Positions 12,895-33,784 of a stretch of DNA of 33,810 nucleotides are shown here, one piece after another. The stretch's first letter is position 1. Every line of letters begins with the position of its first letter. The position numbers were made by a program, and so were the translations under genes. The notes beneath the pieces were generated by a model. That model was not told the DNA's origin. It did no database searches and saw nothing but the letters and a program-made list of their open reading frames with translations. This DNA is from a bacterium (GTDB lineage Bacteria; Actinomycetota; Acidimicrobiia; Spongiisociales; UBA5794), in assembly GCA_024228555.1 (NCBI GenBank), contig JAAETI010000133.1:1-33810 (forward strand). Reading direction: 5' to 3'.

Positions 12895-12915
12895 CGACCC
12901 TACTAACTGCGGTTG

Positions 12916-15904: not shown

Positions 15905-15940
15905 AGAAGCCCTCCCCAGGTTCTGAGCTTTGCGTCCTGA

Positions 15941-15988: not shown

Positions 15989-16053
15989 GCGAGTGAATCC
16001 GATGTCAAGCGGTTCTGCAAGGAACTGCGTCTCGATCAAGGCTTGGAGGGGTC

Positions 16054-17007: not shown

Positions 17008-17897
17008 GTGCGGACGTGTACTGCGCGCTGCCTGCGGAGGCCAAGCTCGGAGAGTCTCCCGTGTGGAGTGTCGACCAACAGGTCCTCTACTGGGTAGACA
17101 TCGATGGTTGCGTGGTGCATGAGTTTGATCCCGGCACGGGGACCGACCGTGGCTGGCTGATCCCAGGACGACCAACTGCTCTCGCGCTGACCGCCGAGCC
17201 GTCTCATCTTCTGGTTGCGGTCGAGACCGGGTTGGGTTGGCTTGATCTTGGGTCGGGGGACTTCAGTGCATGGAGGCCCCTCGAGGAAGCTCGCGAGGGG
17301 ATTCGGCTGAACGACGGCAGATGTGATCCCGCGGGCCGCTTCTGGGTCGGTGGGATGTTCGTACCAACGTCGGCGGGGCGGTTCGAAGCTCGACTGCATC
17401 GTGTCGAAGGTGATGGCACATTTGAGACGACACGGCAAGAGGTCGGTTGTTCCAATGGTCTGGCGTTCTCGCCAGACGGCGATGTCATGTATTGGGCCGA
17501 CACACTCCACTCCACCGTTTGGGCATATGACTATGACGTTGCAACCGGTCGTCAGTACAACGAGCGAGTGTTTCTTGACTTTGGTCCGCTGCCGGGTCGC
17601 CCCGACGGCGCCTGTGTTGACGAAACCGGTTGCTACTGGATCGCCTGTGTCGGCGGATCGGCGGTTCTACGAGTCACTCCACAGGGTGTGGTGGATCGCC
17701 AGATCGATCTTCCGGTGCTGCGTCCCACGATGCCGGCATTTGGAGGGCCCAATCTCGAGACTCTCTTCGTAACGACAATCGGGCGGCGCGCTGCGTCAGA
17801 GTCTGACCTGGGGAATCCGGGAGGCCTCTACGTGATCGATGCCGGCGTTGGCGGGCTTCCGGAACCGCAGTTTGCCGGGCGACCGTCGCTTGGCTGA
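17004..17897 (+). CDS. SMP-30/gluconolactonase-family lactonase
   Basis: A 297-residue six-bladed beta-propeller of the SMP-30/LRE family, which hydrolyses sugar lactones to aldonic acids with a bound divalent metal. All expected ligands are visible: Glu17 in LGESPVW, the Asn103-Asp104 pair in RLNDGRCDP, Asn151 in CSNGLAFSPDG and Asp201 in GRPDGACVD. GTG 17004 overlaps the previous stop (GTGA), so translation is coupled to the RmlD-like dehydrogenase, suggesting consecutive steps: oxidation to a lactone, then ring opening. It ends just before operator site 4. The lactone itself cannot be named. Confidence 0.88.
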   Translation: MSADVYCALPAEAKLGESPVWSVDQQVLYWVDIDGCVVHEFDPGTGTDRGWLIPGRPTALALTAEPSHLLVAVETGLGWLDLGSGDFSAWRPLEEAREGIRLNDGRCDPAGRFWVGGMFVPTSAGRFEARLHRVEGDGTFETTRQEVGCSNGLAFSPDGDVMYWADTLHSTVWAYDYDVATGRQYNERVFLDFGPLPGRPDGACVDETGCYWIACVGGSAVLRVTPQGVVDRQIDLPVLRPTMPAFGGPNLETLFVTTIGRRAASESDLGNPGGLYVIDAGVGGLPEPQFAGRPSLG

Positions 17898-17916
17898 GTC
17901 GGCACCGAGAAACATG

Positions 17917-17945
17917 TGGAACGTTCCAATAGCGGCCGGTATAGT
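17917..17945 (+). promoter_or_regulatory. Promoter with operator palindrome, site 4 (iolD operon)
   Basis: TGGAACGTTCCA at 17917-17928 is followed by TATAGT at 17940-17945. The first arm of the palindrome acts as a -35-like GTGGAA with an 18-base spacer. It begins 19 bases after the SMP-30 stop and drives the four-gene operon from 17977. A repressor bound here would cover the -35 and spacer. Confidence 0.82.
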
Positions 17946-17976
17946 CGGACTGAGCGAGCACCGTGGAGGGAACCCG

Positions 17977-18972
17977 TTGTCTGGATCGAAGCCAAACGTA
18001 TGGTTCGAGCGAGAGATCCTTCTAGATCTTGTTGAGTCCGTCGCTGCGGCGGCAACCATTCTTGGACCGGCGAGCGCAACCCCTGACGATCCCTACAGAA
18101 CCTTGTCCTCCGCAGAGGGAATCGTCGCATCGGTCCATCGGTACGACGCCGCGGTGATGGACCTGGCTCCCGGCTTGAAGGTGATTTCTCGCACCGGTAT
18201 TGGTTACGACAAGGTCGACGTGGCTGCGGCGACTGCTCGAGGTATAGCGGTATGCAACGCACCCGATGGTCCAACTATCTCGACCGCCGAGCATGCAGCA
18301 ACCCTGATGATGATGGTCGCCAAGAACGTCAAGCGGTCGGAAGCCGAGCTTCGCGGCGGGGGAACAGATTTCTACGCCCGCCACACCGGGATCGAGTTGG
18401 AGGGTCGGACCCTCGGTCTTGTCGGGTTGGGGAGGATTGCCCGTCGCGTCGCCCTGATTGCGGCCGGGCTGGGGATGCGTGTGACCGCGTTCGATCCCTA
18501 CCTCGACGATGCCGCGTTTGGCCCAGATGTCGTAAGACGGGTCACCATCGAAGACCTCGTGGCGGACGCCGATGTCGTTTCGCTTCACATCCCCCTCACT
18601 AACGACAACGCTGGCTTTTTCGGGGTCGAACTGATTGGCGCCATGAAGCCAGGGTCCATCCTCATCAATACTGCGCGCGGTGGGCTGATTGATCACGATG
18701 CCCTCGAGGCAGCTCTGAACTCGGGCCACCTCTTTGGTGCCGGTCTCGACGTAACCGATCCCGAGCCGCTACCACCGGAGGATCCGTTGCTGGCCCGCAA
18801 CGACGTCGTTATCACTCCGCATGTGGCCGCAGGGACGGCGGGGGCAAAGCGGCGAATCTTCAAAGGAGCATTCGATCAAGTCATACAGGTGTTGGCCGGC
18901 CAACGACCACCAAATCTCGTCAATCCCGAGATCTGGTCCGGCCGGCCGGTTGAGATAGGAGACTCACGGTGA
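17977..18972 (+). CDS. D-isomer-specific 2-hydroxyacid dehydrogenase (PGDH-like)
   Basis: A 331-residue dehydrogenase of the phosphoglycerate/2-hydroxyacid family: GLGRIA at 150-155, catalytic Arg234 in NTARGG, Glu263 in DPEPLP and His282 in TPHVAAGT. The start is TTG 17977, six bases after GGAGGG. Earlier in-frame codons overlap the SMP-30 gene and the promoter. It is clearly diverged from the dehydrogenase at 1258, with different N-terminal and substrate-loop sequences. It is the first gene of the iolD operon under operator site 4, overlapping the next gene by four bases. It may reduce or oxidise a hydroxyacid or 2-keto-acid arising from cyclitol or sugar-acid breakdown. No C-terminal ACT domain is present. 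Confidence 0.85.
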   Translation: MSGSKPNVWFEREILLDLVESVAAAATILGPASATPDDPYRTLSSAEGIVASVHRYDAAVMDLAPGLKVISRTGIGYDKVDVAAATARGIAVCNAPDGPTISTAEHAATLMMMVAKNVKRSEAELRGGGTDFYARHTGIELEGRTLGLVGLGRIARRVALIAAGLGMRVTAFDPYLDDAAFGPDVVRRVTIEDLVADADVVSLHIPLTNDNAGFFGVELIGAMKPGSILINTARGGLIDHDALEAALNSGHLFGAGLDVTDPEPLPPEDPLLARNDVVITPHVAAGTAGAKRRIFKGAFDQVIQVLAGQRPPNLVNPEIWSGRPVEIGDSR

Positions 18973-20144
18973 GCGAATCGATAGGTATTGGAGTCATCGG
19001 CTTTGGCTGGATGGGGCAAGCGCATTCCCGGGCCTACCGGAACATTCCCGTCTATTACCCGGAGACCGGGATACGACCGCGGCTGGTTGCGATCGCCGAT
19101 ACGGTGCCCGAGCGGGTGGAGTTGGCGACGGACAATTTTGGCTTTGAGACCGGAACGAGCGACTGGCGGGAGTTGTTGGAACGAGACGACATCGACGTCA
19201 TCGATATCACAGCTCCCAACGCACTTCACGAAGAGCTGGCAGTTGCTGCGGCCAAGGCAGGCAAACACATCTTCTGCGAGAAGCCGGTCGGGATCGAGCC
19301 GCGGGCAACGGCTGCGATTGAGCAAGCCGCACGTCAAGCCGGGGCGATCACGGGTTGCGGCTTCAACTATCGCTGGGCACCGATGGTTCAGTACACCAAG
19401 CAGCTCATCGCTGAAGGCCGCTTTGGCGACCTGACCCACTATCGCGGCAGGTTCTTCTCGATGTACGGTCGGGATCGTCTTGGTCTGTTGTCGTGGAGGT
19501 TCAAGCAGGACGAGGCAGGCTACGGCGTGCTGTCGGACATCATGTCGCACACCATCGACATGGCCCTGTACCTGTGTGGACCGATCACCCGGGTGGTTTC
19601 GGTAAAGGAGATCTTTGTCAAAGAGCGTCCCCTGCCAACACCCGGCTCGGGAACGCACTACGACCGGGGCAAGCCCGGTGACCCCACCGGCCAGGTCACA
19701 AACGAGGACTATGTGGGGGCACTTGTCGAGTTCGCCAATGGGGTGCGGGGCACGCTCGAGGTGGATCGTTCGATATTTGGGCCGCAGAGTTCGATGGCAT
19801 ACGAGATGAACGGGGAAAGGGGAGCTGCCTCGTGGGATCACGAGAAGCTCAACCAACTCCAGCTGTATTTGCCAGAGGAGCAGCCAACCGATGGGTTTGT
19901 CGAGGTATTGGCGGGTGACACCTACCCCCACCAGGGCAACATCGTCCCCGGTGGCGGCAACTCCATTGGCTACGAGGACCTGAAGATCATCGAAGCCCTG
20001 GAGTTCCTCAAGGCTGTGGCCGCAGGTCGACCCAACCACCCCAGCTTTGGCGATGCGCTGGCCGTTGCCTCGGTTGCCGATGCCATGACTCGTTCGTGGG
20101 AATCTGAGAAGTGGGAGAACGTGGTCAGTCTCCGTATCGACTGA
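18969..20144 (+). CDS. Gfo/Idh/MocA-family oxidoreductase
   Basis: A 391-residue NAD(P)-dependent dehydrogenase, longer than IolG. The Rossmann motif GVIGFGWMGQAHSRAY is at the N-terminus, EKP occurs in FCEKPVGIEP, and the catalytic Asp/His are in GVLSDIMSHTIDMALYL. The extra length lies mostly in a substrate-domain insertion with PTPGSGTHYDRGKPGD. Relatives with this pattern (FNYRWAPMVQY, GRFF) act on cyclitols or sugar derivatives. GTG 18969 overlaps the preceding stop, and the aldolase follows after 16 bases. In an iolD operon it probably oxidises an alternative inositol isomer or inosose; the substrate is not determined by sequence. Confidence 0.87.
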   Translation: MSESIGIGVIGFGWMGQAHSRAYRNIPVYYPETGIRPRLVAIADTVPERVELATDNFGFETGTSDWRELLERDDIDVIDITAPNALHEELAVAAAKAGKHIFCEKPVGIEPRATAAIEQAARQAGAITGCGFNYRWAPMVQYTKQLIAEGRFGDLTHYRGRFFSMYGRDRLGLLSWRFKQDEAGYGVLSDIMSHTIDMALYLCGPITRVVSVKEIFVKERPLPTPGSGTHYDRGKPGDPTGQVTNEDYVGALVEFANGVRGTLEVDRSIFGPQSSMAYEMNGERGAASWDHEKLNQLQLYLPEEQPTDGFVEVLAGDTYPHQGNIVPGGGNSIGYEDLKIIEALEFLKAVAAGRPNHPSFGDALAVASVADAMTRSWESEKWENVVSLRID

Positions 20145-20160
20145 CCGGAGGAGCGAACCG

Positions 20161-20928
20161 ATGTTGGTAGAGAACTCAACCAAACGAAAGCTGGCGGAGG
20201 GCCAGGCCGTCTACGGGACCTTCTTCCGGCAGCCACTGCCAACCCTCGCAGAGTTTGTGGCGATGCAGGGATGGGACTTCCTCGTCTTTGACGGGGAGCA
20301 CGGCTCTCTCGAGGCGGGCGATATTGAGGGCTTGGCCCGTGCATGCGAGTTGCACGATGTGACACCGATGGCCCGAGTGACCACCAATACCCCGCCGGTC
20401 ATCCTGCGCTTTCTTGATGCGGGCGTGCATGGCGTGCAAGTGCCGTGGGTCAACACTGTTGCGGAAGCCGAAGCAGTAGTGGCGTCCGCCAAATATCCCC
20501 CCCTTGGTCACCGTGGTCTGGCAGGGAGCCGGCAGGGCGGCTGGGGCAATACGGAGCCGCTTGCCGACTTCACGACACGAGCGAATTGCGAGACGCTAGT
20601 GATAGTCCAGATTGAAACGGCAGAGGCCGCCGCCGCCGTCGCGGAGTTCACCGCGGTCGACGGTGTCGATGTGTTGTTCATCGGTCCCACGGACCTGTCC
20701 GCCTCTTTGGGGCACCCCGGTAATCCCGGTCATCCCGAGGTGCAAGAAGTGATGGACCAAGTGGCGAAAGCGGTAGTCGCATCGGACAAGACGCTCGGCA
20801 TCTTTGCCGGTACCGCGGCGTTCGCAACGGAGTGGTACGACAAGGGTGCCCGATACTTCGCCGCAGGTTTTGAGGGAATCGTGAAACAAGGAACGCAGTC
20901 ATATCTATCAGCGGTCAAGGGAGCATAA
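20161..20928 (+). CDS. HpcH/HpaI-family class II aldolase
   Basis: A 255-residue TIM-barrel metal-dependent aldolase of the 2-keto-3-deoxy sugar-acid/4-hydroxy-2-oxoheptanedioate group. Visible active-site parts are FDGEHG at 43-48 with His47, Arg72 in MARV, the metal ligands Glu152 in VQIET and Asp178 in IGPTDLSASLG, and VPWVNTVAEAE. Members cleave 2-keto-3-deoxy acids to pyruvate plus an aldehyde. It lies two bases before iolD and behind GGAGGAG. A pyruvate-forming aldolase is not part of the standard inositol pathway, so this suggests a side branch for sugar acids, perhaps fed by the dehydrogenase/lactonase pair at 16054-17897. The substrate is an open question. Confidence 0.87.
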   Translation: MLVENSTKRKLAEGQAVYGTFFRQPLPTLAEFVAMQGWDFLVFDGEHGSLEAGDIEGLARACELHDVTPMARVTTNTPPVILRFLDAGVHGVQVPWVNTVAEAEAVVASAKYPPLGHRGLAGSRQGGWGNTEPLADFTTRANCETLVIVQIETAEAAAAVAEFTAVDGVDVLFIGPTDLSASLGHPGNPGHPEVQEVMDQVAKAVVASDKTLGIFAGTAAFATEWYDKGARYFAAGFEGIVKQGTQSYLSAVKGA

Positions 20929-20930
20929 AG

Positions 20931-22775
20931 ATGGAGACAATCCGGCTGACAACAGCGCAGGCAATCGTGAAGTGGCTGCTGGCGCAGCGCACGGTGGTTG
21001 ACGGTGAGGAAGTAGGCGTATTCGCCGGAGCTTTTGGCATCTTTGGTCATGGCAATGTCACATGTCTTGCCGAGGCATTGCAGCCGGTTCAAGACGAACT
21101 CCCGACATGGCGCGGTCACAACGAGCAGTCGATGGCGCTGGCCGCGGTTGCCTACGGGAAGGCGATGCGAGGCCGGCGGATCATGATCGCCACTTCCTCG
21201 ATCGGTCCAGGCAGCACCAACATGGTCACCGCGGCTGCCGTTGCCCACGCCAACCGGATACCACTGCTCTTGTTCTCGGGCGACACCTTCCAGCATCGGA
21301 TTGTGGATCCGGTGCTGCAGCAGGTCGAGAACTTTGGCGATCCGACCATCACTGCGGCCGACACCTTCAAGCCTGTGACGCGCTACTGGGATCGCATCAG
21401 CCGCCCCGAGCAGATCATCCAGTCGTTGCCACAAGCACTGGCGGTCATGCTTGACCCAGCCAGCAGAGGCCCGGCCTTTTTTGCGCTCCCGCAGGACATC
21501 CAGGCCGAGGCGTACGACTATCCAGCTCGATTCTTCGAGCCAAAGGTGCACTACATCCGTCGCCCCGGTCCCGACCCGCGTGACATCGCCGCGGCTGCCA
21601 AGATGCTGGTCGAAGCGAAGAAACCAATGATCATCGCCGGCGGCGGCGTTCACTATTCAGGCGCGGTCGCCGAGTTGACTGACTTTGCCGAGCGACGTGG
21701 CATCCCTGTGGTCGAGACCGTTGCCGGCAAGGCAGCGTTGTTGCACGACCATCCCAACTATGCGGGTCCGATCGGGACTACCGGGTCTGAGGCTGCCAAC
21801 GCGGTGGCTGAGGACGCCGATCTCGTCCTGGCGATCGGGACTCGACTCCAGGACTTCACCACGGGTTCATGGTCGGTGTTCAAGAACCCTGACGCACGGT
21901 TCGTTGCGATCAACACCGCGGGGTGGGACGCCCACAAACAGATGGCACAGCCGGTTGTCGCCGACGCCAAGGTTGCAATCGAAGCGATCGACGCCGCAAT
22001 TGGCGACTACGCGGCGCCTGCGGAGCGTCTTGCCTTTGCCCAGAGTCAGATCGCCGCATGGCACGGCTACCTCGATTCGTGGAAGGAAAGAGAGCAAGAC
22101 GGCGCCCCTGCCTATGCCCAGGTCATCCAGGTTATCAACGAGATCTGTGACGACGATGACTACTGCCTGTCGGCGGCGGGTGGCCTTCCGGGTGAACTCA
22201 CCATGGGGTGGCGGTCAAAGTCGATTGGCTCTTTCGACTCTGAGTACGGCTATTCGACAATGGGGTACGAGATCGCAGGAGCCTGGGGAGCCAAGATGGC
22301 GCGCGGTGAGGGCGATGTCATCTGTTGGGTGGGCGATGGCTCCTACCTGATGATGAACTCGGACATCTACTCGACAGTTATGACCGGCAAGAAGGTCATC
22401 TTCATGGTCTGTGACAACGGCGGCTTTGCCGTGATCAACCGGCTCCAGGTCAACACCGGTGGCGCCGAGTTCAACAATCTCTTGCGCACAGCTCGTCATG
22501 AACGCTACTTCCATGTCGACTTCGTCAAGCACGCCGAATCGATGGGTGCGCTTGTGGAGAAGGTGGAGCGACTCGAAGACTTGCCCGCTGCCTGGGCGCG
22601 GGCGAAGGCGGCCGACCGCAGTTATGCGATTGTGGTCGACATTGACGAGTACACCTGGACCGAGGGCGGTGCTTGGTGGGAGGTCGGGATTCCCGAGGTG
22701 AGTGACCGCGAGCTGGTCAGGGTGGCCCGGGCAGAGTTGGACGCTGAGAAGAAGCATCAACGAGTCGGGATCTAG
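20931..22775 (+). CDS. iolD: 3D-(3,5/4)-trihydroxycyclohexane-1,2-dione acylhydrolase
   Basis: A 614-residue thiamine-diphosphate enzyme, full length for IolD, which opens the cyclohexane-dione ring of the inositol pathway to 5-deoxyglucuronate. Diagnostic IolD segments are FGIFGHGNVTCLAEAL, RGHNEQSMALAAVAYGKA with the ThDP-activating Glu65, TSSIGPGSTNMVTAAA, DPVLQQVENFGD and DIQAEAYDYPARFF. The C-terminal ThDP/Mg motif starts at GDG near residue 468 and ends in the CDNGGFAVINRLQ region. It is two bases after the aldolase gene with AGGGAG before the ATG. This is the strongest marker that the island degrades inositol; IolB at 9389 would take its product. Confidence 0.95.
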   Translation: METIRLTTAQAIVKWLLAQRTVVDGEEVGVFAGAFGIFGHGNVTCLAEALQPVQDELPTWRGHNEQSMALAAVAYGKAMRGRRIMIATSSIGPGSTNMVTAAAVAHANRIPLLLFSGDTFQHRIVDPVLQQVENFGDPTITAADTFKPVTRYWDRISRPEQIIQSLPQALAVMLDPASRGPAFFALPQDIQAEAYDYPARFFEPKVHYIRRPGPDPRDIAAAAKMLVEAKKPMIIAGGGVHYSGAVAELTDFAERRGIPVVETVAGKAALLHDHPNYAGPIGTTGSEAANAVAEDADLVLAIGTRLQDFTTGSWSVFKNPDARFVAINTAGWDAHKQMAQPVVADAKVAIEAIDAAIGDYAAPAERLAFAQSQIAAWHGYLDSWKEREQDGAPAYAQVIQVINEICDDDDYCLSAAGGLPGELTMGWRSKSIGSFDSEYGYSTMGYEIAGAWGAKMARGEGDVICWVGDGSYLMMNSDIYSTVMTGKKVIFMVCDNGGFAVINRLQVNTGGAEFNNLLRTARHERYFHVDFVKHAESMGALVEKVERLEDLPAAWARAKAADRSYAIVVDIDEYTWTEGGAWWEVGIPEVSDRELVRVARAELDAEKKHQRVGI

Positions 22776-23830: not shown

Positions 23831-25843
23831 ATGAAGTTGCCTCTCAGATCGTTTGTCGATCCTCGTCATACAGCAGCATTCATTGCGCTTGCGCTACTTG
23901 TCGGCTTCCTGGCCGGGGTCGCGGGAGCCGGTCTGATCGCCGCGATCGACGGCTTGACCAGCGCGATCTCATGGCTAGAGGACCAACTGCGGTTCGGTCG
24001 TTGGTTGCCTCTTCTAACCGTCCCGCTCGGGCTGGGTATCGCATGGCTGATCGGTCGTCGCTTCCCAGAGGTGAAGGGGAGCGGTGTACCGGAAACGACT
24101 GCCGGCTTGGCTGTACGTGCCGGCTACGTTCCCACGCGGTCGATCTTCTGGAAGACGGCGGCAACCGCCGCGACTCTCGGCGGTGGAGGATCGGCAGGGC
24201 GAGAAGGGCCGACAGTGATGATCGGTGCTGCGATCGGTTCTTCGATCGGGCGCCACTCCGGACTCGGTGAAGATCAGATCCGGTCGCTCGTCGCAGCCGG
24301 TGCCGGCGCCGGGATTGGCGCCACCTTCAATGCGCCCATTGCCGGGATGCTGTTTGCGATGGAAGTCATTCTGGGCAACTTTGCGATTCGCCATCTCAAC
24401 GCTGTTGTCATCGCATCAGTGACTGCTGCGGTCACAACCAAGACTCTGGTCGGCCAGGAGCAGATACTCTCGGCCGAGTCGCACACCATCGGCTCTCCAA
24501 CCGAGCTGCTGCTCTATGCAGGGCTGGGGGTTCTTGCCGCCCTGGTTGGTGTTTTGTTCCTCAGGACGTTCGATACCGTCCACTCCAAGATTGATCTCTT
24601 CGTTGCCCGTCCCTGGCTCAGGCCCATTGTTCTGGGTGGGCCCGTTGCCATCCTCATCGCGATCGAGCCTCGGTTGTTCGGCACCGGTCAGTCGTTTATC
24701 CAGGGCCTGGTTGACGGCAGCACCCTCGAAACCGCGTGGTGGGTTCTGTTGGTCCTGGCGGGCCTCAAGGTCCTGGCTACGGCCGGCACCTTGGGCTCCG
24801 ACGGATCAGGAGGGCACTTCATGCCGGCGCTCTTCATCGGGTCGACGTTGGGAGCGGGGGTCGCCGCGTTGCTTGCGCCGGTTTGGGAGATATCAACCAT
24901 CGACACCGGCGCCTTCGCCGTCGTTGGAATGGCGGCTACCTTCGCCGCGGTCGCCCGCGCCCCACTGACATCCATCCTGATCGTCTTCGAGCTGACTGGT
25001 GACTACGGGCTTGTCCTCCCACTCATGCTGGCCACATCACTGGCCACGTTGATCGCGGACAGGCTGCATCGTGAGACCGTCTACACGATCCCGCTTGTCA
25101 GCCGTGGTATTCGTCTTCTCCGCACCAGCGATATCGATCTGCTCGACACTGTGAGGGTTGTCCAGGTGATGTCACCCTGGAGCGAGGTTGTGCGGCCGGG
25201 GGATTCAACGCGTGAGGTACAGGACCAGCTCGATGTCCATCGACATCACGGGCTTCCGGTCGTTGACGAGGATGAGCAGCTGGTCGGGATCATCACTTTG
25301 ACCGATGTGGCGCGGACCGGGGGACCGGGGGACGAGGTGACCGCCGCAGTAGCTATGACCCCGAACCCTGTCACCGTTACGGAATCGACGCCGGTGTCGC
25401 GCGCCATGGAGCGAATGGCCAGCCTCGGTGTCGGTCGTCTCCCCGTGGTTGCGGATGAAGCGCCCACGAAACTGGTGGGGATGTTCCGGCGCGAAACTGC
25501 GGTGAAGGCTTATCACTTTGCGCTCACCGAAGCCACAGAACACGAGCTCGCCCGAAAACGACAACGGCTCTGGACGAGACCGGATGCTGAGTTCTTCGAG
25601 TTTCATATACCGGGTGGCTCCAAGGCGGACGGCGCACCTCTGAAGGACGTGCAATGGCCGCAAGGCTGCACATTGGTGGCGATCCGGCGCGGACATGCAG
25701 TCCTGGTGCCCGATGGCACGACCGTTCTTGAAGCCGGTGACATCATCACTGGATTCGGAGCCGCGGATGCCAGGGATCGGGTGATGGAACGGTTGCGAGC
25801 GCCGATGGAAGTTGTGGGCGAGGGCGAAGACGAATCCGGCTAG
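23831..25843 (+). CDS. CLC-family chloride channel/transporter with CBS and TrkA-C domains
   Basis: A 670-residue membrane protein. The CLC core (about 15-425) has the three anion-pore motifs GSGVPE (83-88), GREGP (123-127, holding the gating glutamate) and GGHFMP (327-332), with Tyr418 as a candidate inner-gate tyrosine. The position of the internal proton glutamate in E. coli ClC-ec1 (second Glu of its IIEE motif) reads Val179 here (AMEV), so proton coupling may be lost or altered. Two CBS domains (about 445-570) and a TrkA-C-like domain (about 590-655) follow in the cytoplasm and could sense nucleotides. It lies 67 bases after the SDR, with GGAG before the ATG and no operator copy. Any link to sugar catabolism is unclear; it may be a general ion transporter. 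Confidence 0.9.
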   Translation: MKLPLRSFVDPRHTAAFIALALLVGFLAGVAGAGLIAAIDGLTSAISWLEDQLRFGRWLPLLTVPLGLGIAWLIGRRFPEVKGSGVPETTAGLAVRAGYVPTRSIFWKTAATAATLGGGGSAGREGPTVMIGAAIGSSIGRHSGLGEDQIRSLVAAGAGAGIGATFNAPIAGMLFAMEVILGNFAIRHLNAVVIASVTAAVTTKTLVGQEQILSAESHTIGSPTELLLYAGLGVLAALVGVLFLRTFDTVHSKIDLFVARPWLRPIVLGGPVAILIAIEPRLFGTGQSFIQGLVDGSTLETAWWVLLVLAGLKVLATAGTLGSDGSGGHFMPALFIGSTLGAGVAALLAPVWEISTIDTGAFAVVGMAATFAAVARAPLTSILIVFELTGDYGLVLPLMLATSLATLIADRLHRETVYTIPLVSRGIRLLRTSDIDLLDTVRVVQVMSPWSEVVRPGDSTREVQDQLDVHRHHGLPVVDEDEQLVGIITLTDVARTGGPGDEVTAAVAMTPNPVTVTESTPVSRAMERMASLGVGRLPVVADEAPTKLVGMFRRETAVKAYHFALTEATEHELARKRQRLWTRPDAEFFEFHIPGGSKADGAPLKDVQWPQGCTLVAIRRGHAVLVPDGTTVLEAGDIITGFGAADARDRVMERLRAPMEVVGEGEDESG

Positions 25844-25890: not shown

Positions 25891-25921
25891 GTTGGAACGT
25901 TCCAACTCGTAGGGATATACT
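25891..25921 (+). promoter_or_regulatory. Promoter with operator palindrome, site 5 (transketolase operon)
   Basis: The longest perfect copy, GTTGGAACGTTCCAAC (25891-25906), is followed by TATACT at 25916-25921. TTGGAA serves as the -35 with an 18-base spacer. The predicted transcript starts near 25928 and leads to ATG 25967. Operator geometry matches site 4 base for base, so the same regulator very likely controls both. Confidence 0.85.
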
Positions 25922-25966: not shown

Positions 25967-27379
25967 ATGAGCCAGAACGAACTTGATACGACAACCTACA
26001 TTTCCGAGCTGATGGATCGCGCCCGGAAGGCGCAGAAAGTAGCGGAAGGGTTCTCGCAAGAGAAAGTGGACGAGCTCGCCGCCGCAATCACCTGGGAAAT
26101 CGCTGCAAACGATGAGCTTCTTTGCGAAATCGCTGAGTTCTCATTCGAAGAATGCCAGTTGGGTGATGTCGCTTCCAAGATCGCCAAGGTCGCCGGCAAA
26201 TGTCGGGGAATCCTGTATGACGTCAAGAATGCCAAGAGCGTCGGGGTAGTCGAGGAGATGCCGGAACGCGGGCTTGTGCGTATTGCCAAGCCTGTTGGCG
26301 TGATCGGCTCGCTGGTGCCAAGCACCCAGGGAGAGTTCCATCCGCTGACTCAGGCCATCTTTGTGGTCAAAGCCAGGGATGCGGTCATCTTCTCCCCGCA
26401 TCCCCGGAGCAAGCTCACAACGCTGAAGGTGACGAACCTCCTTCGGGCCGTAATGAAGAAGTATGGCGCTCCAGAGGACCTTTTCATCACGATCGAGGAT
26501 CCCTCAATTCCCAAGACCAACGAGCTCATGAAGCAATGTGATCTGGTGATCGCCACGGGTGGTCAGCCCATGGTTCGGGCGGCGCACAGCTCGGGAACGC
26601 CAGCCTTCGGTGTCGGAGCGGGCAACGCAATCATCATCATCGACAAGACCGCCGACCTCGCCGACGCAGCAACCAAGATCAAAGCCAGCAAGACATTCGA
26701 CCTCGCCGCGGGGTGTTCCTGTGACAACGCTGTCGTGATCGACGAGTCGGTATACGCCGAGATGCTGGCTGAGTTCCGCAAGGTCGGTGCGCATCTGCTC
26801 AATGCGGATGAGAAGGAGAAGCTGAAGAAGGCGATCTGGCCCGAATGGCCCGCCAACCACATCATCAGCAGGCATGTCGTGGCGTCACCGGTGAGCAATC
26901 TCGCCGAGCTGGCCGGTCTTGATGTCCCTGAGGGAACCAGCTTCCTGCTGGTGGAAGAGGACGAAACCGGGGAAGCATCGCCATTCAGCGGTGAGAAGAT
27001 GAGTCTCGTGACCGCCGTCTACAAGAGCAGCAGCATCGACGACGCAATCCGCATCACCAATGAGAACCATGCGTACTCAGGCCACGGACATTCATGCGGC
27101 ATCTTCTCGGCGACACCCGAGAACGTAGAGAAGCTGGCGCTGGGAACCTATACGACTCGCGTCGTTGTAAACCAGCCGCAGGCCGCAACCAATGGCGGCA
27201 GCTGGGTCAGCGGAATGCCATTCACCCATTCTCTGGGCTGCGGGACGTGGGGTGGCAATGGCATATCGGAGAACATTGCACTCAAGCATTACCTGAACAA
27301 CACCTGGGTCATCCGTGAGATCCCCAGCTTCCAACCAACCGACGAGGAGCTGTTCTCCGGCTTCACGCCTCGTGCGTGA
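25967..27379 (+). CDS. CoA-acylating aldehyde dehydrogenase, sulfoacetaldehyde dehydrogenase (SauS/SqwD)-like
   Basis: A 470-residue CoA-acylating aldehyde dehydrogenase of the EutE/SauS branch, oxidising an aldehyde to an acyl-CoA with NAD(P). The catalytic cysteine is Cys250 in FDLAAGCSCDNAVV. KPVGVIGSLVPST, SSGTPAFGVGAGNA, the late AYSGHGHSCGIFS and the C-terminal ISENIALKHYLNNTWV follow the pattern I recall for sulfoacetaldehyde dehydrogenases. Sulfoacetaldehyde and malonate semialdehyde both carry an acid group two carbons from the aldehyde, so in this inositol regulon malonate semialdehyde to malonyl-CoA is a natural proposal; sulfoacetaldehyde itself is the other. It is first in the site 5 operon, with GGGAGGG before the ATG. 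Substrate is inference. Confidence 0.85.
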   Translation: MSQNELDTTTYISELMDRARKAQKVAEGFSQEKVDELAAAITWEIAANDELLCEIAEFSFEECQLGDVASKIAKVAGKCRGILYDVKNAKSVGVVEEMPERGLVRIAKPVGVIGSLVPSTQGEFHPLTQAIFVVKARDAVIFSPHPRSKLTTLKVTNLLRAVMKKYGAPEDLFITIEDPSIPKTNELMKQCDLVIATGGQPMVRAAHSSGTPAFGVGAGNAIIIIDKTADLADAATKIKASKTFDLAAGCSCDNAVVIDESVYAEMLAEFRKVGAHLLNADEKEKLKKAIWPEWPANHIISRHVVASPVSNLAELAGLDVPEGTSFLLVEEDETGEASPFSGEKMSLVTAVYKSSSIDDAIRITNENHAYSGHGHSCGIFSATPENVEKLALGTYTTRVVVNQPQAATNGGSWVSGMPFTHSLGCGTWGGNGISENIALKHYLNNTWVIREIPSFQPTDEELFSGFTPRA

Positions 27380-27430
27380 TTCAGACCGAAATCCGGACAC
27401 GATATTGACCGATACCTGGGAGAGGGCAGT

Positions 27431-28891
27431 CTGAAGAACCGCATCTCGACAGCCGAGGAGGCGGCCGCCTCTATCCGTGACGGCATGACCGTTGCCATGA
27501 GCGGATATGCGATGGCGGGCTATCCCAAAGCTGTCGTCGAAACTCTTGTGCAACGCAAGCAGAGCGGTGACGCCCTGTCGTTCGAGCTGATCACCGGCGC
27601 CAATGTGCCATGGCTGGATGAAACGCTCGGAGCGGAGAAGCTAGTGACCCGGCGAGCCCCCATGGTGGCCAGCCGCACCCTCGCCGCCCAAGCCAACAAC
27701 GGCTCTCTGAGTTACGTCGAGCAGCAGATGAGCAAGATGCCGCGGCTGCTCAGAAGCAACAGCTTCGGAGAGATCGATGTTGCACTGGTCGAGGCACTCG
27801 GATTCGACGATGACGGGGATCTAATACCCACCAGCTCCGTCGGCATGACCCACTATCTGATGGCCGCCGCGGATGAAATCATTGTCGAGATCAACACCGC
27901 CCAGCCGGATGTGCTGCGGAGTCTGCATGACATCCACATCCCAGTGGCAGCACCCGATGCGCAGCCGATCCCGCTGGTCCGCACCAATCAGCGAATCGGC
28001 TTGTCGGGTATCCCGGTTGACCGGAAGAAGATCCGGCACATCGTCGAGACCGACATCCCGGAGCGAATGGGGCCGCAGCCATCGGGCACCGCGGTGACGA
28101 GGAACATCGCCGACCATCTGTTCAATTTTCTCGAGTTGGAAGTCCAGAAGACCGGGCACCTTCCGCCGATTCAGACGGGTTTCGGCGCTATCGCCGATTC
28201 TGTTGCCGATGCGTTTCAGCAAGCCAGCTTCCGTGATCTCCAGTTCTTCTGCGGAGGCATAACCGAGCCTGTGTTGGAGCTCCTTGCTGCCGGCAAGGCG
28301 ACAGCCCTATCAGCCGGTGGGTTGGGGATGAGCGAGCGGGTGGAGCAGATTCTGAACGACACTCCGAATCTGCGCGACCACCTGGTGCTCCGCAACGGTG
28401 ACATCACCAACAGTGCCGAAGTGATCGGACGGTTGGGGCTGGTTGCGCTGAATACCGGCATTGAGATCGACATCTACGGCAATGTGAACTCGAGCCATAT
28501 CGCAGGGAGCCGGGTTGTCAACGGCATTGGGGGCGGAGCGAGTTTTGCCCAGAACGCCGGCCTGTCGGTGATCTTGATACCGTCGACGGCCAAGGGCGGG
28601 GCAATCTCCAACGTCGTTCCCATGGTGTCCCACCAGGACATCTCTGAACACGACGTCGATGTTGTCGTAACCGAGCACGGCATCGCCGATCTACGCGGGC
28701 TCGATGACGGAGAACGCGCTGACGCCATCGTCACACACTGCGCATCCGAGGCCTATCGAGGGCAATTGACGACCTACCTGCAGACCGCACGTGAGCAATG
28801 CGGCGGACACCATCCCCAGCTGCCCGAAGCGGCGTTTGGCTGGTACCGGCGGCTCAAAGAGGAAGGGACCATGCTGGAGGAGGGATCATGA
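27431..28891 (+). CDS. Acetyl-CoA hydrolase/transferase-family CoA-transferase
   Basis: A 486-residue protein of the succinyl-CoA:acetate/4-hydroxybutyrate CoA-transferase family, moving CoA between carboxylic acids. Typical parts are the N-terminal STAEEAAASIRDGMTVAMSGY, the catalytic Glu279 in FFCGGITEPVLEL, and GGGASFAQNA and VVTEHGIADLRGL toward the end. The first ATG in frame (27485) would cut into the conserved N-terminus. The frame is open upstream to the previous gene's stop, with CTG 27431 four bases after GGGAGAGGG, so I take CTG as the start. It would recycle CoA from the acyl-CoA made by the preceding dehydrogenase, releasing the free acid. It overlaps the next gene by four bases (ATGA). 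Confidence 0.83.
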   Translation: MKNRISTAEEAAASIRDGMTVAMSGYAMAGYPKAVVETLVQRKQSGDALSFELITGANVPWLDETLGAEKLVTRRAPMVASRTLAAQANNGSLSYVEQQMSKMPRLLRSNSFGEIDVALVEALGFDDDGDLIPTSSVGMTHYLMAAADEIIVEINTAQPDVLRSLHDIHIPVAAPDAQPIPLVRTNQRIGLSGIPVDRKKIRHIVETDIPERMGPQPSGTAVTRNIADHLFNFLELEVQKTGHLPPIQTGFGAIADSVADAFQQASFRDLQFFCGGITEPVLELLAAGKATALSAGGLGMSERVEQILNDTPNLRDHLVLRNGDITNSAEVIGRLGLVALNTGIEIDIYGNVNSSHIAGSRVVNGIGGGASFAQNAGLSVILIPSTAKGGAISNVVPMVSHQDISEHDVDVVVTEHGIADLRGLDDGERADAIVTHCASEAYRGQLTTYLQTAREQCGGHHPQLPEAAFGWYRRLKEEGTMLEEGS

Positions 28892-29778
28892 AGAAGATCG
28901 AGCTCTACGAAGTCGGACCACGCGACGGTTTTCAGATGGTGGATGAATACATCCCGTTGGAGACGAAGGCCCGCATCGTCGAAGGGCTGCTGGATGCCGG
29001 ATTGAGACATCTGCAGATAACGTCCTTTGTGAGTCCCAAAGCAATCCCCCAAATGAGAGATGCTGGGGATTTGGCGGCGAAGGTAGTCAGCAAGTATCCG
29101 GATGCGGATCTCTTTGCGCTGGTCCCGAATCTGCGTGGTGCCGAGGCGGCGTGGGAGTCCGGTCTTCGCGCAGTGTCCTATGTGGTGTCGTTGAGCGAGA
29201 GTCACAACCGGGCAAACATCAAGAGGACGCATGAGGAGTCCTTTGCCGGTCTGCAGGCGATTCTGGAGTCCTATCCAGAGATGGATGTCTGTCTGGATCT
29301 GTCCACCACGTTCGGTTGCCCGTTTGAGGGGATGAAGAGCGAAGATGAGGTTGTTCCCTTCCTCAAGCCCTATGTCGACAGCGGAATACGCACCGTCAAT
29401 CTCTGCGACACCATCGGCATCGCCAACCCGGCTCAGGTTCGCCGAATCATCGAGGCCGTCAGGGCCGCATACCCGGTGCTGGATCTGCAGGTTCACATTC
29501 ACGACACCCGCAACATGGGAATGGTCAACACGCTGGCCGCCATCGAGCTCGGCGTCGACAAGGTGCAGTCAACCTTGGGCGGTCTGGGGGGCTGTCCCTT
29601 TGCGCCGGGGGCATCCGGGAACCTGGCTACGGAAGACCTGGCGTTCATGCTGTCAGAAATGGGATACGAACTTGGCGTCGATATCCCAAAGATGATCAAA
29701 CTCGCCAAATACCAAGCCTCAGCAATACCTACGGGACAGTTCAGCGGGCATCAATTCAGAATCCCCGACACCAACTAG
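28888..29778 (+). CDS. HMG-CoA lyase-like DRE-TIM metallolyase
   Basis: A 296-residue protein of the hydroxymethylglutaryl-CoA lyase family, which splits 3-hydroxyacyl-CoAs by a retro-Claisen reaction with a divalent metal. All hallmark residues are present: Arg12-Asp13 in GPRDGFQ, His203 and His205 in HIHDTRNMG, and the active-site loop cysteine Cys236 in GGCPFAPGASGNLATED. ATG 28888 overlaps the CoA-transferase stop; the longer frame from 28798 lies inside that gene. HMG-CoA itself has no obvious source here, so it may act on another hydroxyacyl-CoA formed by the acylating dehydrogenase and CoA-transferase next to it. Leucine degradation genes are absent nearby. Confidence 0.87.
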   Translation: MKKIELYEVGPRDGFQMVDEYIPLETKARIVEGLLDAGLRHLQITSFVSPKAIPQMRDAGDLAAKVVSKYPDADLFALVPNLRGAEAAWESGLRAVSYVVSLSESHNRANIKRTHEESFAGLQAILESYPEMDVCLDLSTTFGCPFEGMKSEDEVVPFLKPYVDSGIRTVNLCDTIGIANPAQVRRIIEAVRAAYPVLDLQVHIHDTRNMGMVNTLAAIELGVDKVQSTLGGLGGCPFAPGASGNLATEDLAFMLSEMGYELGVDIPKMIKLAKYQASAIPTGQFSGHQFRIPDTN

Positions 29779-29801
29779 CACATCACCACGGAGAGACGCA
29801 T

Positions 29802-30638
29802 ATGGCAAACAAAAAAACGGTTGATCTCGTCGAGGAGAAGGCTGCTCTGATGCGCCGGGATGTCATCGAAATGGGCTACGCCGCAGGAGGCCGCGGCGCC
29901 CACTTCGGACCGGCTTTGTCAAGTATCGAAATCGTGGCGGGCTTGTTCTTTGGAATCATGAATCATGATCCCAAGAATCCGACGATGGCGGATCGGGACC
30001 GATTCGTCCAGAGCAAGGGCCACGCCTGCCTTGCCTACTACGCCGCACTGACGGAGACCGGCTACATCACAAGAGAACAGATGTACACCTTCAAGGGCGA
30101 CAACAGTTTCCTCGCCGGCCATCCCACTAGGAACATGAAGTACGGCATCGAGGTGACTTCAGGAAGCCTTGGCAACGGCTTTGCCGTCGCTTGCGGGATG
30201 GCCAAGGCGGCGAAGATCAAGAGCGACGATCACAAGGTGTATTGCCTCGTTGGCGACGGGGAATGCAACGAGGGGATCATCTGGGAAGCGGCCATGAACG
30301 CCGCCAAGTATGAACTGGACAACCTCATCGCAATCGTCGACCGCAATGGTGTCCAGCTGGCCGGCACCACCAAAGACATCATGGATGTTGATATCGAGGC
30401 GCTGTGGAGAGCGGCGGGCTGGGATGTCGTTGTCGTTGAAGGTGGCAACGACGCTTCGAGTGTGCTCGAGGCTTTGCAGGGAATGAGAGATTCCAGCAGC
30501 GGGAAACCTCACGTGATCATTGCCAACACGACGAAGGGCAAAGGCATTTCGTTTATGGAAGGCAGCCTCGGCTGGCACGCCAGGCCTATGCCACAGGAAT
30601 TCTATGAACAAGCTGTAGCGGAATTGGAGAACGCATGA
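29802..30638 (+). CDS. Transketolase, N-terminal subunit
   Basis: A 278-residue half-transketolase carrying the diphosphate/Mg part of the thiamine-diphosphate site. Visible features are GGRGAHFGPALSSIEI, SKGHA with His74, GHPTRNMKYGIEVTSGSLGNG, and the GDG motif at 151-153 continuing through GECNEGIIWEAAMNAAKYELDNLIAIVDRNG. It needs the C-terminal subunit encoded by the next gene, which overlaps it by four bases. Split transketolases are common in archaea, Firmicutes and catabolic clusters, including sulfoglycolytic ones. It lies in the site 5 operon behind the acylating dehydrogenase, not near pentose-phosphate genes, so it probably moves a two-carbon unit from a catabolic ketose to glyceraldehyde-3-phosphate. 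Confidence 0.92.
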   Translation: MANKKTVDLVEEKAALMRRDVIEMGYAAGGRGAHFGPALSSIEIVAGLFFGIMNHDPKNPTMADRDRFVQSKGHACLAYYAALTETGYITREQMYTFKGDNSFLAGHPTRNMKYGIEVTSGSLGNGFAVACGMAKAAKIKSDDHKVYCLVGDGECNEGIIWEAAMNAAKYELDNLIAIVDRNGVQLAGTTKDIMDVDIEALWRAAGWDVVVVEGGNDASSVLEALQGMRDSSSGKPHVIIANTTKGKGISFMEGSLGWHARPMPQEFYEQAVAELENA

Positions 30639-31621
30639 CCGCACGGGGAGTTGACATGAGGAAAGCACCGACAGACAGATTGCAGGAATGGTCCAAGAAA
30701 GGTCACCGGACCGTGCAGGGAGACACCCTGGTGATGCTGGCCGCCGACTACCCGGACATGGTGGTAATAAGCGCCGACCTCACCCCGACGGCACGGCTCA
30801 CCGACTTCAGGGAAACCTATCCGGACAGGTTCTTTGATGTCGGTATCGCCGAACAGAATCTGATCGATTTCACGGTCGGGCTTGCTCTCGAAGGTCTTCG
30901 TCCCTTTGCCGTTGGCCTGGCGGGCATAGTGCCGATGCGTCCAGCCGAACAGATGCGTGCCGCCCTGGGCTATATGAATGCAAACGCGACGGTCATCGGC
31001 ATCGAAGCTGGCGTACGGTTTGGGCCGCTGGGGAATACTCACTATGCCATGGACGACATCGCCGTAGTCAGGGCGATTCCGAATTTCACTGTTATCTGCC
31101 CGTCCGACCCGCTCTCAACCCACAAGGCGCTCTACGCTTGCGCCGAGCACGAGGGCCCCGTCTACGTCCGCCTCACCGGCGGTCCGGGGTATCCCGTGAT
31201 GTATCCCGAGGACTTCGATTTCCAGATCGGCAGGGCCATCGAGTATCGCCCGGGTAGCGATGTTGCATTTGTATCGAGTGGATCTCTTCTCGCCGATGCG
31301 GTAGGCGCCGCCGACATTCTCGAGGGCAAAGGGATTTCGGCCCGGGTTGTCGACATGCATACCGTGAAACCGTTGGATACAGAGATGCTGGACAGGGTAT
31401 TCGCCGAAAACAAGCTCGTCGTCACGGTTGAGGAGCACAGCTCGATCGGCGGCCTGGGTGGGGCGGTTGCGGAATACAAAGCCGGTTTCGCCGATGCTCC
31501 GAAACAGCTTATCGCCAGTCTGGGCGACAAGTTCCAGAAGCTCGGTGACCATACGTTCCTGATGAAGCTAAACGGGTTGACAGCCCCCGACCTGGCGGCT
31601 CTGGCGGAGGCGAACGTGTAG
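30635..31621 (+). CDS. Transketolase, C-terminal subunit
   Basis: A 328-residue partner containing the pyrimidine-binding and C-terminal transketolase domains. Glu73 in DVGIAEQNLIDFTVG activates thiamine diphosphate, DLTPTARL and GPLGNTHYAMDDIAVVRAIPNF are typical, and VEEHSSIGGLGGAVAEY marks the C-terminal domain. ATG 30635 overlaps the first subunit's stop (ATGA) and has GGAG five bases upstream. ATG 30656 behind GGGGAG is a second possible start in the same frame. It is the last gene of the site 5 operon and is followed by a terminator hairpin. With the N-terminal subunit it should form a functional enzyme. Confidence 0.92.
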   Translation: MTARGVDMRKAPTDRLQEWSKKGHRTVQGDTLVMLAADYPDMVVISADLTPTARLTDFRETYPDRFFDVGIAEQNLIDFTVGLALEGLRPFAVGLAGIVPMRPAEQMRAALGYMNANATVIGIEAGVRFGPLGNTHYAMDDIAVVRAIPNFTVICPSDPLSTHKALYACAEHEGPVYVRLTGGPGYPVMYPEDFDFQIGRAIEYRPGSDVAFVSSGSLLADAVGAADILEGKGISARVVDMHTVKPLDTEMLDRVFAENKLVVTVEEHSSIGGLGGAVAEYKAGFADAPKQLIASLGDKFQKLGDHTFLMKLNGLTAPDLAALAEANV

Positions 31622-31664: not shown

Positions 31665-31816
31665 ATTCACACACCCGCTCGGGTTTGCCGGCTATCTCTC
31701 GCCGAGGGGCGCTCGATAACGTCTTCGGTGGCGGGTGTTATGTGTGGCGGCATCACCGCCATCAACTTGCCGACTCGCCTTCGAGATCGAGGGTGCCGGG
31801 TGGCTACGCTCTGGAT

Positions 31817-32428
31817 GTGAGATATGCGAGCCGCGTCGAGATGCTGAAAGCCTTCGGACCATTTGCCGAGGTGTTCGAAACGACAGGCGAGGATCCGAAT
31901 CCGTACTTGAGCCTTCTGCGGCTCGAAGGCGATGTTTCGACGGCGACAGTGGATCGCATCCGGGCTGCGATTGAGTGCGAGGACAGTCATCGTGCGATTC
32001 TCGTGTTGCTGCAGGACGACAACTGGCGACCTCACCTTGTTGGCGCGGTCGCTATGGCGATCAGCCCTTCACCGAAGGCAATTACTGAGACTTGGAGAAC
32101 GCTCGATGCGGGCAGTTGGGTGACGCCGCAAATGGCCGCAGCTCTGTCGCTCGTCGATAGCTCATTTCGAGAGAGGGCGATCGACCGTCTCAACAGGGGC
32201 TGTCCACTCCTCGATCTGCCAACGTTCAAGTTCAGATCGGTAATCGAACAACACAGCGCTCAGGGTCCAAGCGGCTCGAAGGCCCGCTCGGCCAAAGCAG
32301 CCGCCTCGCTCTTCGCACTCGTCGAATTCGACCAACCTGACGATCCTGCGATTGTTGCGCTTCGACGGGACTCAGACGTCCAAGATCTCATTCGGAGTGA
32401 CACGTCCCGGGACGTGGTGTATGAGTGA
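31817..32428 (+). pseudogene. Hypothetical protein gene truncated by IS insertion
   Basis: About 203 residues from GTG 31817; ATG 31841 is another candidate, and no start has a strong ribosome site. I recognise no family. The protein is mostly helical, with short repeated helix-turn units (STATVDRIRAAIECEDSHRAILVL, WRPHLVGAVAMAIS), possibly HEAT-like. The frame runs into the left inverted repeat of the IS256-type element: the last nine residues and the stop (32399-32428) are encoded largely by IS-end DNA. The natural C-terminus was therefore displaced and would continue beyond the right edge of the window. It follows the transketolase operon terminator, so it has its own promoter, which I cannot identify. 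Confidence 0.6.
32402..32423. repeat. Left terminal inverted repeat of the IS256-type element
   Basis: Reads ACGTCC-CG-GGACGTGGTGTATG, matching the reverse complement of 33785-33806 except for the two central bases. It contains its own small ACGTCC/GGACGT palindrome, which may be part of the transposase binding site. Confidence 0.8.
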
Positions 32429-32455: not shown

Positions 32456-33700
32456 CTAGCCGATTGCTGGTTCGAGTGCTGGGGTCACCTCCTCGAGTTG
32501 GTCGGGTTCGATGAGTCGGATGCGGGTTTGGGCGAGTGATTCGAGGCTCATGTATCGGCGGGCGATGGCCCATTCGTCGTGTTGTTCGGCGAGTAGGGCG
32601 CCGATTAGCCGGATGATCGATGGTCGGGTGGGGAAGATGCCGACGACGTTGGTGCGACGCCGGATCTCCTTGTTGAGACGTTCTTGGGGATTGTTGGACC
32701 AGATCTGGCGCCAGTGGGCTTTCGGGAACCCGGTGAACGTCAGGATCTCTCCTCCCGCCTGGTCGAGATGATCCGCGGCGTCTGTGAGGCCCACGTCGTG
32801 GAGGTGGTCGACGATGCGGTGATGCTGCGCCCATACCGACTTCGGGTCGGGTTGGGCGAAGATGGTTCGCACCATCGTGGCGACCATCGATCCAGATGAT
32901 TTCGGGACCTTCGTCAACAAGTTCCGCATGTAATGAGTCCGGCAGCGCTGCCACGACGCACCCGGCAACGTCGCCGCAACAGCATCGACCAGGCCGGTGT
33001 GGTCATCGGAGATCACCAACTGGACACCGGAGAGTCCCCGGGCCACCAGGGACCGGAAGAAGGCGAGCCAGCCGGCCCCGTCCTCAGCCGTGGCGAGGTC
33101 GACGCCGAGGATGTCACGGTTGCCGTCGGCGTTGACACCTGTCGCCAGCAGGCAGGCGATGTTGACGATGCGGCCACCCTCGCGGACCTTCATCGTCAAC
33201 GCGTCGGCCCACACATAGGTATACGGGCCTTGGTCGAGTGGCCGGTTCCGGAAATCCGCAACCATGTCGTCGAGGGTCTTGGCCATCTCCGAGACCTGCG
33301 ACTTGGACAGCGATGTGATCCCGAGCGTCTCCACAAGACCTTCGACCCTCCGGGTGGAGACACCCCGCACATAGGCTTCCGAAACGACCTGGATGAACGC
33401 CCGCTCCGACCGGGTCCTCGCATCCAGGAGCCAGTCCGGGAAATACGAACCAGTCCGTAGCTTCGGGATCTTCAGATCGATACTTCCCGTCCGAGTGTCC
33501 CACCGGCGGGACCGGTAGCCGTTGCGGCGATTGACCCGGTCCGGGGAACTCTCCCCGTAGGCAGCACCGCACACCACATCGGCTTCGGCTCCCATCAACT
33601 CTTCAGCAAAGCTGCGCACCATCTCACGCAGCAAGTCGTTGTCGTCGGTTTCGAGCTGCTTGCGCAGCCACACCAACGCGTCCATGCTCTTATTGATCAC
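32456..33700 (-). CDS. IS256-family (mutator-type) transposase
   Basis: A 414-residue DDE transposase, full length for the family. The catalytic acids are expected at the Asp of VWADALTMKVR, the Asp in VISDDHTGLVDAV and the Glu of NPQERLNKEIRRRTNVVGIFP; the spacing and the CRTHYMRNLL segment between the second Asp and the Glu are typical. I start it at GTG 33700, six bases after GAGGAG; an in-frame GTG at 33754 has no comparable site, and ATG at MDALVW is a further option. The reading frame has no breaks, so the element may be active. Confidence 0.92.
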   Translation of the reverse strand: MINKSMDALVWLRKQLETDDNDLLREMVRSFAEELMGAEADVVCGAAYGESSPDRVNRRNGYRSRRWDTRTGSIDLKIPKLRTGSYFPDWLLDARTRSERAFIQVVSEAYVRGVSTRRVEGLVETLGITSLSKSQVSEMAKTLDDMVADFRNRPLDQGPYTYVWADALTMKVREGGRIVNIACLLATGVNADGNRDILGVDLATAEDGAGWLAFFRSLVARGLSGVQLVISDDHTGLVDAVAATLPGASWQRCRTHYMRNLLTKVPKSSGSMVATMVRTIFAQPDPKSVWAQHHRIVDHLHDVGLTDAADHLDQAGGEILTFTGFPKAHWRQIWSNNPQERLNKEIRRRTNVVGIFPTRPSIIRLIGALLAEQHDEWAIARRYMSLESLAQTRIRLIEPDQLEEVTPALEPAIG

Positions 33701-33784
33701 CGCGTTCTCCTCACGGTCGCTAACACATACCTGTGAGGCTGGCGCGGTGATCACCTATTGGGAAGCACCCTCACAACGGGGCCC

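Follow-up and report, generated by a model that had tools for sequence, protein, structure and literature searches.

A five-gene operon with a split transketolase and its proposed place in inositol catabolism of Acidimicrobiia and other bacteria

Layout and conservation of the operon

We analysed a 33,810-nucleotide stretch of an acidimicrobial genome (contig JAAETI010000133.1 of assembly GCA_024228555.1; hereafter the window), in which five intact, closely spaced genes of the plus strand form one operon at 25967-31621. Gene families were assigned by NCBIfam and Pfam models. The operon begins with a SauS-like CoA-acylating aldehyde dehydrogenase (ALDH) of 470 amino acids (25967-27379), followed by a class I CoA-transferase homologue of the ScpC/AarC/Cat1 type (CoAT; 27431-28891, first ATG at 27485), a 297-amino-acid enzyme of the 3-hydroxy-3-methylglutaryl-CoA (HMG-CoA) lyase family (HMGL; 28885-29778) and the two halves of a split transketolase, namely the N-terminal, thiamine pyrophosphate (TPP)-binding subunit (TK-N; 29802-30638) and the C-terminal subunit (TK-C; 30635-31621), which has an altered head-group site. 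The TK-N and TK-C genes overlap by 4 bases, and the start of the lyase gene overlaps the 3' end of the CoA-transferase homologue gene. Since GGAGGG lies just upstream of 28885 and the stretch shared by orthologues begins there, this is most likely the lyase start rather than 28798. The frame of the CoA-transferase homologue is open 5' of 27485 and encodes there a conserved N-terminus ('..LKNRISTAEEAAASIRDG'), so that translation probably begins at a non-ATG codon near 27431. A preliminary description of this DNA had read the same five functions as one operon, and the genes are indeed intact and lie where it had placed them.

When 84,980 genomes were searched with the dehydrogenase, 24 loci were found at 68-94% identity, after which identity fell to 58% or less. 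Among 296 genomes of the class, three lyase orthologues were 91-92% identical and the rest at most 45%. As the same genes occur in the same order (ALDH-CoAT-HMGL-TKN-TKC) in Acidimicrobiia, Spirochaetes, Clostridia and Anaerolineae, the five-gene set recurs far more consistently than chance would allow. In one locus with a betaproteobacterial label the contig holds the beginning of the operon, and another contig of that genome holds the remainder. Three loci bearing this label (L055, L177 and L178, all from genome G305) have iol and operon genes of clostridial appearance, carried on short contigs, and mis-binning is possible.

Active-site residues of the operon enzymes

Active-site positions were taken from alignments to solved homologues, which are gap-free around the CoA-transferase glutamate. 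With the class I CoA-transferases ScpC and AarC the operon homologue has about 40% identity and the oxyanion-hole residues Asn347 and Gly388 in common, each kept in 28 of 28 orthologues. It differs from them in lacking the catalytic Glu294 of AarC, which is Gly in all 28 orthologues (Gly257 in the window protein, counted from 27485), while canonical CoA-transferase relatives carry Glu at this position. AarC is inactive when this glutamate is mutated to alanine (E294A; PMC4876117). Loss of the catalytic glutamate with retention of the oxyanion hole suggests an intramolecular CoA shift, and we propose from these residues that the homologue is a 1-malyl-CoA/4-malyl-CoA isomerase. The mechanism that we put forward tentatively, as plausible though somewhat doubtful, is that of an intramolecular acyl-CoA isomerase in which the thioester is attacked by the second carboxylate of the same substrate molecule and CoA then reopens the resulting cyclic malic anhydride at the other carboxyl. 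An FFCGG motif in this protein has a nearly invariant Cys (Ser in one orthologue) and an acidic residue stands four positions further on; neither is fully invariant.

The dehydrogenase found SauS as its best NCBIfam model, at 478 bits and below the cut-off of 600, and retains the catalytic Cys250; it is proposed to be a D-malate-semialdehyde dehydrogenase forming 1-malyl-CoA. The lyase passed the HMGL subfamily model (262 bits, cut-off 246). It belongs to the fold family of HMG-CoA lyase (human HMGCL, 1ydo and 6nds) and shares with it the metal-binding and catalytic residues Arg41, Asp42, His233, His235, Cys266 and Asn275, which are invariant in the operon lyases. On the other hand, the operon orthologues differ from HMG-CoA lyase by E72Q, D257Q, A130L, G203C and G239N, all of them invariant in the aligned orthologues and seldom or never seen in the canonical outgroup; E72Q, D257Q and similar group-specific changes argue for a substrate other than HMG-CoA. 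We propose that the enzyme is an (R)-malyl-CoA lyase yielding acetyl-CoA and glyoxylate. (R)-4-Malyl-CoA is a beta-hydroxyacyl-CoA, open as such to cleavage into these two products by an enzyme of HMGL type. Because a single CitE-type lyase accepts both (R)-HMG-CoA and (S)-malyl-CoA (PMC6689899), the (S)-HMG-CoA geometry of the HMGL fold matches (R)-malyl-CoA. The CitE (PF03328) lyases of L-malyl-CoA and citramalyl-CoA carry out the same reaction as is proposed here, cleavage of malyl-CoA to acetyl-CoA and glyoxylate, but the operon lyase is of an unrelated family and the stereochemistry proposed for it is opposite, (R) and not (S).

The closest solved relative of TK-N is 6yak, itself a split transketolase, and the TPP motif GDGE..N and the catalytic histidines are present in the operon transketolase, as judged from sequence and the 6yak alignment. 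Transketolases that bind phosphate carry the motif RSFHR and those acting on sulfofructose RAFDR (PMC11659671). The operon transketolase reads R, T, E and G at the positions of R356, S383, H466 and R525, so neither motif was found in it (His is replaced by Glu and Arg by Gly). Compared with human transketolase, TK-C has H416 replaced by Glu, D424 by Leu and R474 by Gly, the first two in every operon transketolase examined, and a new Arg appears in the operon enzymes within the motif GVRFG or GCRFG.

Association with inositol genes and the proposed pathway

The window itself carries inositol genes. The gene iolD for diketo-inositol hydrolase (20931-22775, plus strand; 816 bits, cut-off 715) is the only copy over the cut-off in this genome. 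On the minus strand lie iolB (9389-10267; 286 bits, cut-off 205), whose product 5-deoxy-glucuronate isomerase makes 2-deoxy-5-keto-D-gluconate, an iolE-like inosose dehydratase (14022-14912; 163 bits, below the cut-off of 290) and an iolG-like inositol dehydrogenase (14909-16039; 306 bits, below the cut-off of 355). Among the 24 operon genomes iolB was found in 21 and iolD over the cut-off in 19, with iolD fragments in 2 more; the background of the class is 42 of 292 genomes with iolD. For 6/7 against 40/290 genomes the Fisher test gives p = 6e-5, with no correction for relatedness.

The two gene sets are also found side by side. In two clostridial loci (L059 and L163) the row iolD-iolE-iolH-gfo-iolB is followed directly by the operon, and in two others (L063 and L186) the same row leads into the dehydrogenase, where the contig stops; all four clusters are without iolC and iolJ, while in L056 the row is preceded by iolC. 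In one acidimicrobial genome (G297) the operon is flanked, at two contig ends, by iolB, iolG and iolE with ABC transporter genes and by iolD. Several Spirochaetes have an iolB-iolC-class II aldolase-iolD cluster on the operon contig, and in several the operon has a divergent DeoR-type regulator, 55-59% identical to the regulator of the clostridial iol cluster. No iolC over the cut-off was found in 9 of the 24 operon genomes. IolC as an obligatory partner was rejected, given that clusters occur both with and without its gene. No IolA (methylmalonate-semialdehyde dehydrogenase, MMSDH) was found in any operon genome outside Acidimicrobiia, which hold both IolA and the operon.

We consider it likely, on these genomic grounds, that the five-gene operon encodes an exit from inositol catabolism that starts with the transketolase and ends in acetyl-CoA and glyoxylate. 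Gene content, gene order, conservation, active-site changes and co-occurrence with iol genes are the direct data, from which we infer all of the reactions, which aldehyde accepts the ketol unit and what precisely the CoA-transferase homologue does. The compound 2-deoxy-5-keto-D-gluconate is the same as 5-deoxy-D-fructuronate, a 1-hydroxy-2-ketone with the D-threo configuration needed by transketolases, and D-malate semialdehyde (OHC-CHOH-CH2-COOH, 3-hydroxy-4-oxobutanoate) is the carboxylate analogue of D-glyceraldehyde 3-phosphate. The split transketolase would take the C5-C6 ketol unit off this IolB product, leaving D-malate semialdehyde, with glyceraldehyde 3-phosphate as the default acceptor, giving xylulose 5-phosphate. 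The SauS-like dehydrogenase would then convert the semialdehyde with CoA and NAD+ to (R)-1-malyl-CoA, the glutamate-less CoA-transferase homologue would shift CoA to C4, probably intramolecularly through a cyclic anhydride, and the HMGL homologue would cleave (R)-4-malyl-CoA to acetyl-CoA and glyoxylate. In this sequence each of the five gene products would have a role, in order. The preliminary description had offered the conversion of 3-hydroxy-4-oxobutanoate to a malyl-CoA, exchange of CoA to the other carboxyl and cleavage by the lyase as one of its possibilities, and this is what the evidence favours; its carboxylate branch was thus right in outline, while its sulfonate branch and its malonyl-CoA variant were not supported. 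The source of the aldehyde was absent from it, namely 2-deoxy-5-keto-D-gluconate, with iolB, iolD, iolE and iolG in the same window.

Furthermore, some of the same Clostridia (L161 and L168) have a second cluster, iolD-iolE-malic enzyme-type II glyceraldehyde-3-phosphate dehydrogenase (GAPDH)-phosphoglycerate kinase (PGK)-split transketolase, with iolB in one of them. The GAPDH of these sister clusters is present in 11 of 188 genomes of one order. At four loci (L202, L203, L205 and L206) it stands beside iolB, iolD, iolE, iolG, PGK and both transketolase halves, and a LarAH6 nickel-dependent malate racemase (565-587 bits, cut-off 500) was found at three of these (L202, L203 and L206) and at L207, which besides shows GAPDH and PGK only. 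No iolC over the cut-off was found in the nine newly found sister genomes, one of which (G365) has the cluster on a 1.81-Mb contig. In this sister route GAPDH and PGK would turn D-malate semialdehyde into D-malate and ATP, so that a malate racemase or malic enzyme would be expected to follow; D-malate had been predicted from the stereochemistry of 2-deoxy-5-keto-D-gluconate before the racemase was found. The gene content of the sister clusters is thus independent support for a D-malate-type transketolase product. A SulP-type permease (Pfam Sulfate_transp and STAS, checked on L200) lies beside the malic-enzyme clusters (L161 12937, L162 8035, L168 4947 and L200 16029) and could be a dicarboxylate carrier.

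Several observations weigh against the proposed exit or narrow it. The gene iolC is over the cut-off in 15 of the 24 operon genomes and adjoins the operon in L056, L061 and L178, and phosphorylation at C6 would block or compete with the transketolase; where the two coexist, the cell would use both exits or the kinase would act on a different substrate. The gene-content counts are phylogenetically non-independent and the genomes are mostly metagenome-assembled genomes (MAGs). The altered phosphate pocket of the transketolase makes glyceraldehyde 3-phosphate a less likely acceptor, which weakens that part of the scheme, and for the sister route, malic enzymes usually use L-malate. At two loci, L062 and L064, an iron alcohol dehydrogenase accompanies the acylating dehydrogenase, the CoA-transferase homologue and the lyase, and no transketolase lies alongside, in genomes showing no iolB and no full iolD, which suggests that the trio is a portable malate-semialdehyde module usable with another aldehyde source. 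It possibly serves there in a 3,4-dihydroxybutyrate route. The trio stands at 509-6942 in L064, while L062 (9962-19641) additionally holds a TRAP transporter and a D-2-hydroxyacid dehydrogenase. In G257, too, the trio is present with no recognised transketolase beside it.

Of the competing explanations, the one that departs least from this scheme keeps the start to 1-malyl-CoA and has the CoA-transferase homologue act, through some other nucleophile, as a normal intermolecular transferase or as a hydrolase, or gives the lyase a different substrate. The near-invariant Cys of FFCGG or the acidic residue might substitute for Glu, and malate is released in the sister route; yet the E294A mutant of AarC is inactive (PMC4876117), neither alternative residue is fully invariant, and free malate would deprive the lyase of its CoA ester. 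We regard this as unlikely. It is a good deal less probable that the operon takes the place of IolA and makes malonyl-CoA from the malonate semialdehyde which the usual IolC/IolJ route supplies. That MMSDH-type IolA was not found in any operon genome other than those of Acidimicrobiia would fit, as would the iolB-iolC-iolJ-like-iolD clusters on the operon contigs of Spirochaetes, but the transketolase and lyase would be left without a role, clusters lacking iolC and iolJ exist, and Acidimicrobiia hold IolA together with the operon. With two enzymes unused, we rejected malonyl-CoA formation, which the preliminary description had considered.

Service in generic acyl-CoA metabolism, for instance of leucine or HMG-CoA, with an unrelated transketolase alongside, would be in keeping with the lyase's match over the HMGL subfamily cut-off; it is very improbable in view of a five-gene order held across distant phyla and of the group-specific active-site changes in HMGL, transketolase and CoA-transferase homologue. 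The sulfonate explanation, to which we give the least credence, has the transketolase act on sulfofructose and sulfoerythrulose, the dehydrogenase on sulfoacetaldehyde and the CoA-transferase recover sulfoacetate. As is proposed for the operon, the sulfo-transketolase (sulfo-TK) pathway of sulfoquinovose (SqvD, SqwGH, SqwI, SqwD and SqwKL; PMC11659671) has a split transketolase act on an acidic ketose, after which a CoA-acylating aldehyde dehydrogenase takes up the acidic aldehyde that is left; SauS is the best model of the operon dehydrogenase, and the stretch 2211-4291 holds a small transaldolase and an SftI-like isomerase. In contrast, the ketose proposed for the operon is an inositol-derived deoxy-uronate, for which one transketolase step would be enough, an SqwI-like isomerase is not seen, the head-group residues of the transketolase differ, and the operon adds the CoA-transferase homologue and the lyase to take an acyl-CoA to central metabolites. 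Both the dehydrogenase (478 against 600 bits) and the isomerase (262 against 700) are far below their cut-offs, the transketolase motif is not RAFDR and the conserved neighbours are iol genes; within the neighbourhoods of the loci, to which this reading was confined, no sulfoquinovosidase, sulfonate exporter, SqwI-like isomerase or other sulfonate gene was recognised. The sulfonate reading was rejected on the model cut-offs, the transketolase motif and the neighbouring genes, and the HMG-CoA-lyase-like enzyme, which the preliminary description had itself set outside the sulfo-TK scheme, indeed has no role there.

Other genes of the window and implications

Contig C7 of the window genome carries iolC, a second iolB and iolA, so that in this genome the operon would be a second exit and not a replacement. 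Within the window, a D-2-hydroxyacid dehydrogenase, a Gfo/Idh oxidoreductase and an HpcH/HpaI aldolase (17839-20928, plus strand) precede iolD and stay adjacent to it in related genomes. A sugar-type ABC transporter of ATPase, permease and binding protein lies on the minus strand (10949-13914), its binding protein nearest the rhizopine binding-protein model. Adjoining iolB is a divergent transaldolase (7862-8953, plus strand), 65-70% identical to the iol-locus transaldolases of L164 (14130-15212) and L179 (~644); across Acidimicrobiia, Anaerolineae and a betaproteobacterial MAG it always stands beside iol genes. Acting on 2-deoxy-5-keto-D-gluconate, it would yield malonate semialdehyde, paralleling the sulfo-transaldolase (sulfo-TAL) branch. 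A type II (archaeal-type) GAPDH homologue (4307-5323, plus strand), well over the cut-off, is 61-62% identical to the GAPDHs of the clostridial and spirochaetal iol, transketolase and PGK clusters; it is a possible phosphorylating D-malate-semialdehyde dehydrogenase. In this actinobacterial inositol cluster PGK is not nearby. Beside it, the transaldolase of the 2211-4291 pair is of the fructose-6-phosphate-aldolase-like type, and the pair also lies near iolB, iolG and iolE in a related genome (L182 3547-5650). A chloride-channel-like protein (23831-25843) has an 87% identical counterpart beside the iolD/operon region of another genome (L152 9135). The promoter-like site upstream of the operon (25892-25921, plus strand) has 9/12 matches, which is not above chance. 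Directly after the operon comes a 247-amino-acid reading frame (31685-32428) with no Pfam or NCBIfam match, and shortly downstream, on the opposite strand, an IS256-like transposase frame called by eye (32456-33754).

Our search of an open-access library, with preprints and subscription journals outside it, returned no paper describing the pathway of the operon; the word 'transketolase' does not occur in the inositol survey PMC9430895, nor 'inositol' in the LarA papers. The usual marker set for scoring inositol catabolism in bacteria is iolBCDE (PMC9430895). The proposed exit shares with the canonical myo-inositol route (IolG, E, D, B, C, J and A) the steps down to 2-deoxy-5-keto-D-gluconate and would replace or parallel the kinase IolC, the aldolase IolJ and the dehydrogenase IolA; where the canonical route gives dihydroxyacetone phosphate, acetyl-CoA and CO2, the exit would give acetyl-CoA, glyoxylate and a ketose (phosphate).

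Among the carbon sources that plants provide, inositol (from phytate) is a major one. The transketolase exit would be a new branch of its known breakdown pathway, well supported by comparative genomics, and would account for genomes that have iolB, iolD and iolE but lack iolC. It would link inositol breakdown to pentose phosphates, open a branch that yields C2 products and be a counterpart to the transketolase and transaldolase branches by which sulfosugars are degraded, while the sister route places LarAH6 malate racemases in a physiological context. Two enzyme activities are predicted, cleavage of D-malyl-CoA by an HMGL homologue and shifting of CoA by a glutamate-less CoA-transferase; if the intramolecular CoA isomerase is true, both its activity and its mechanism would be new, within a new inositol branch that uses an HMGL-fold D-malyl-CoA lyase.

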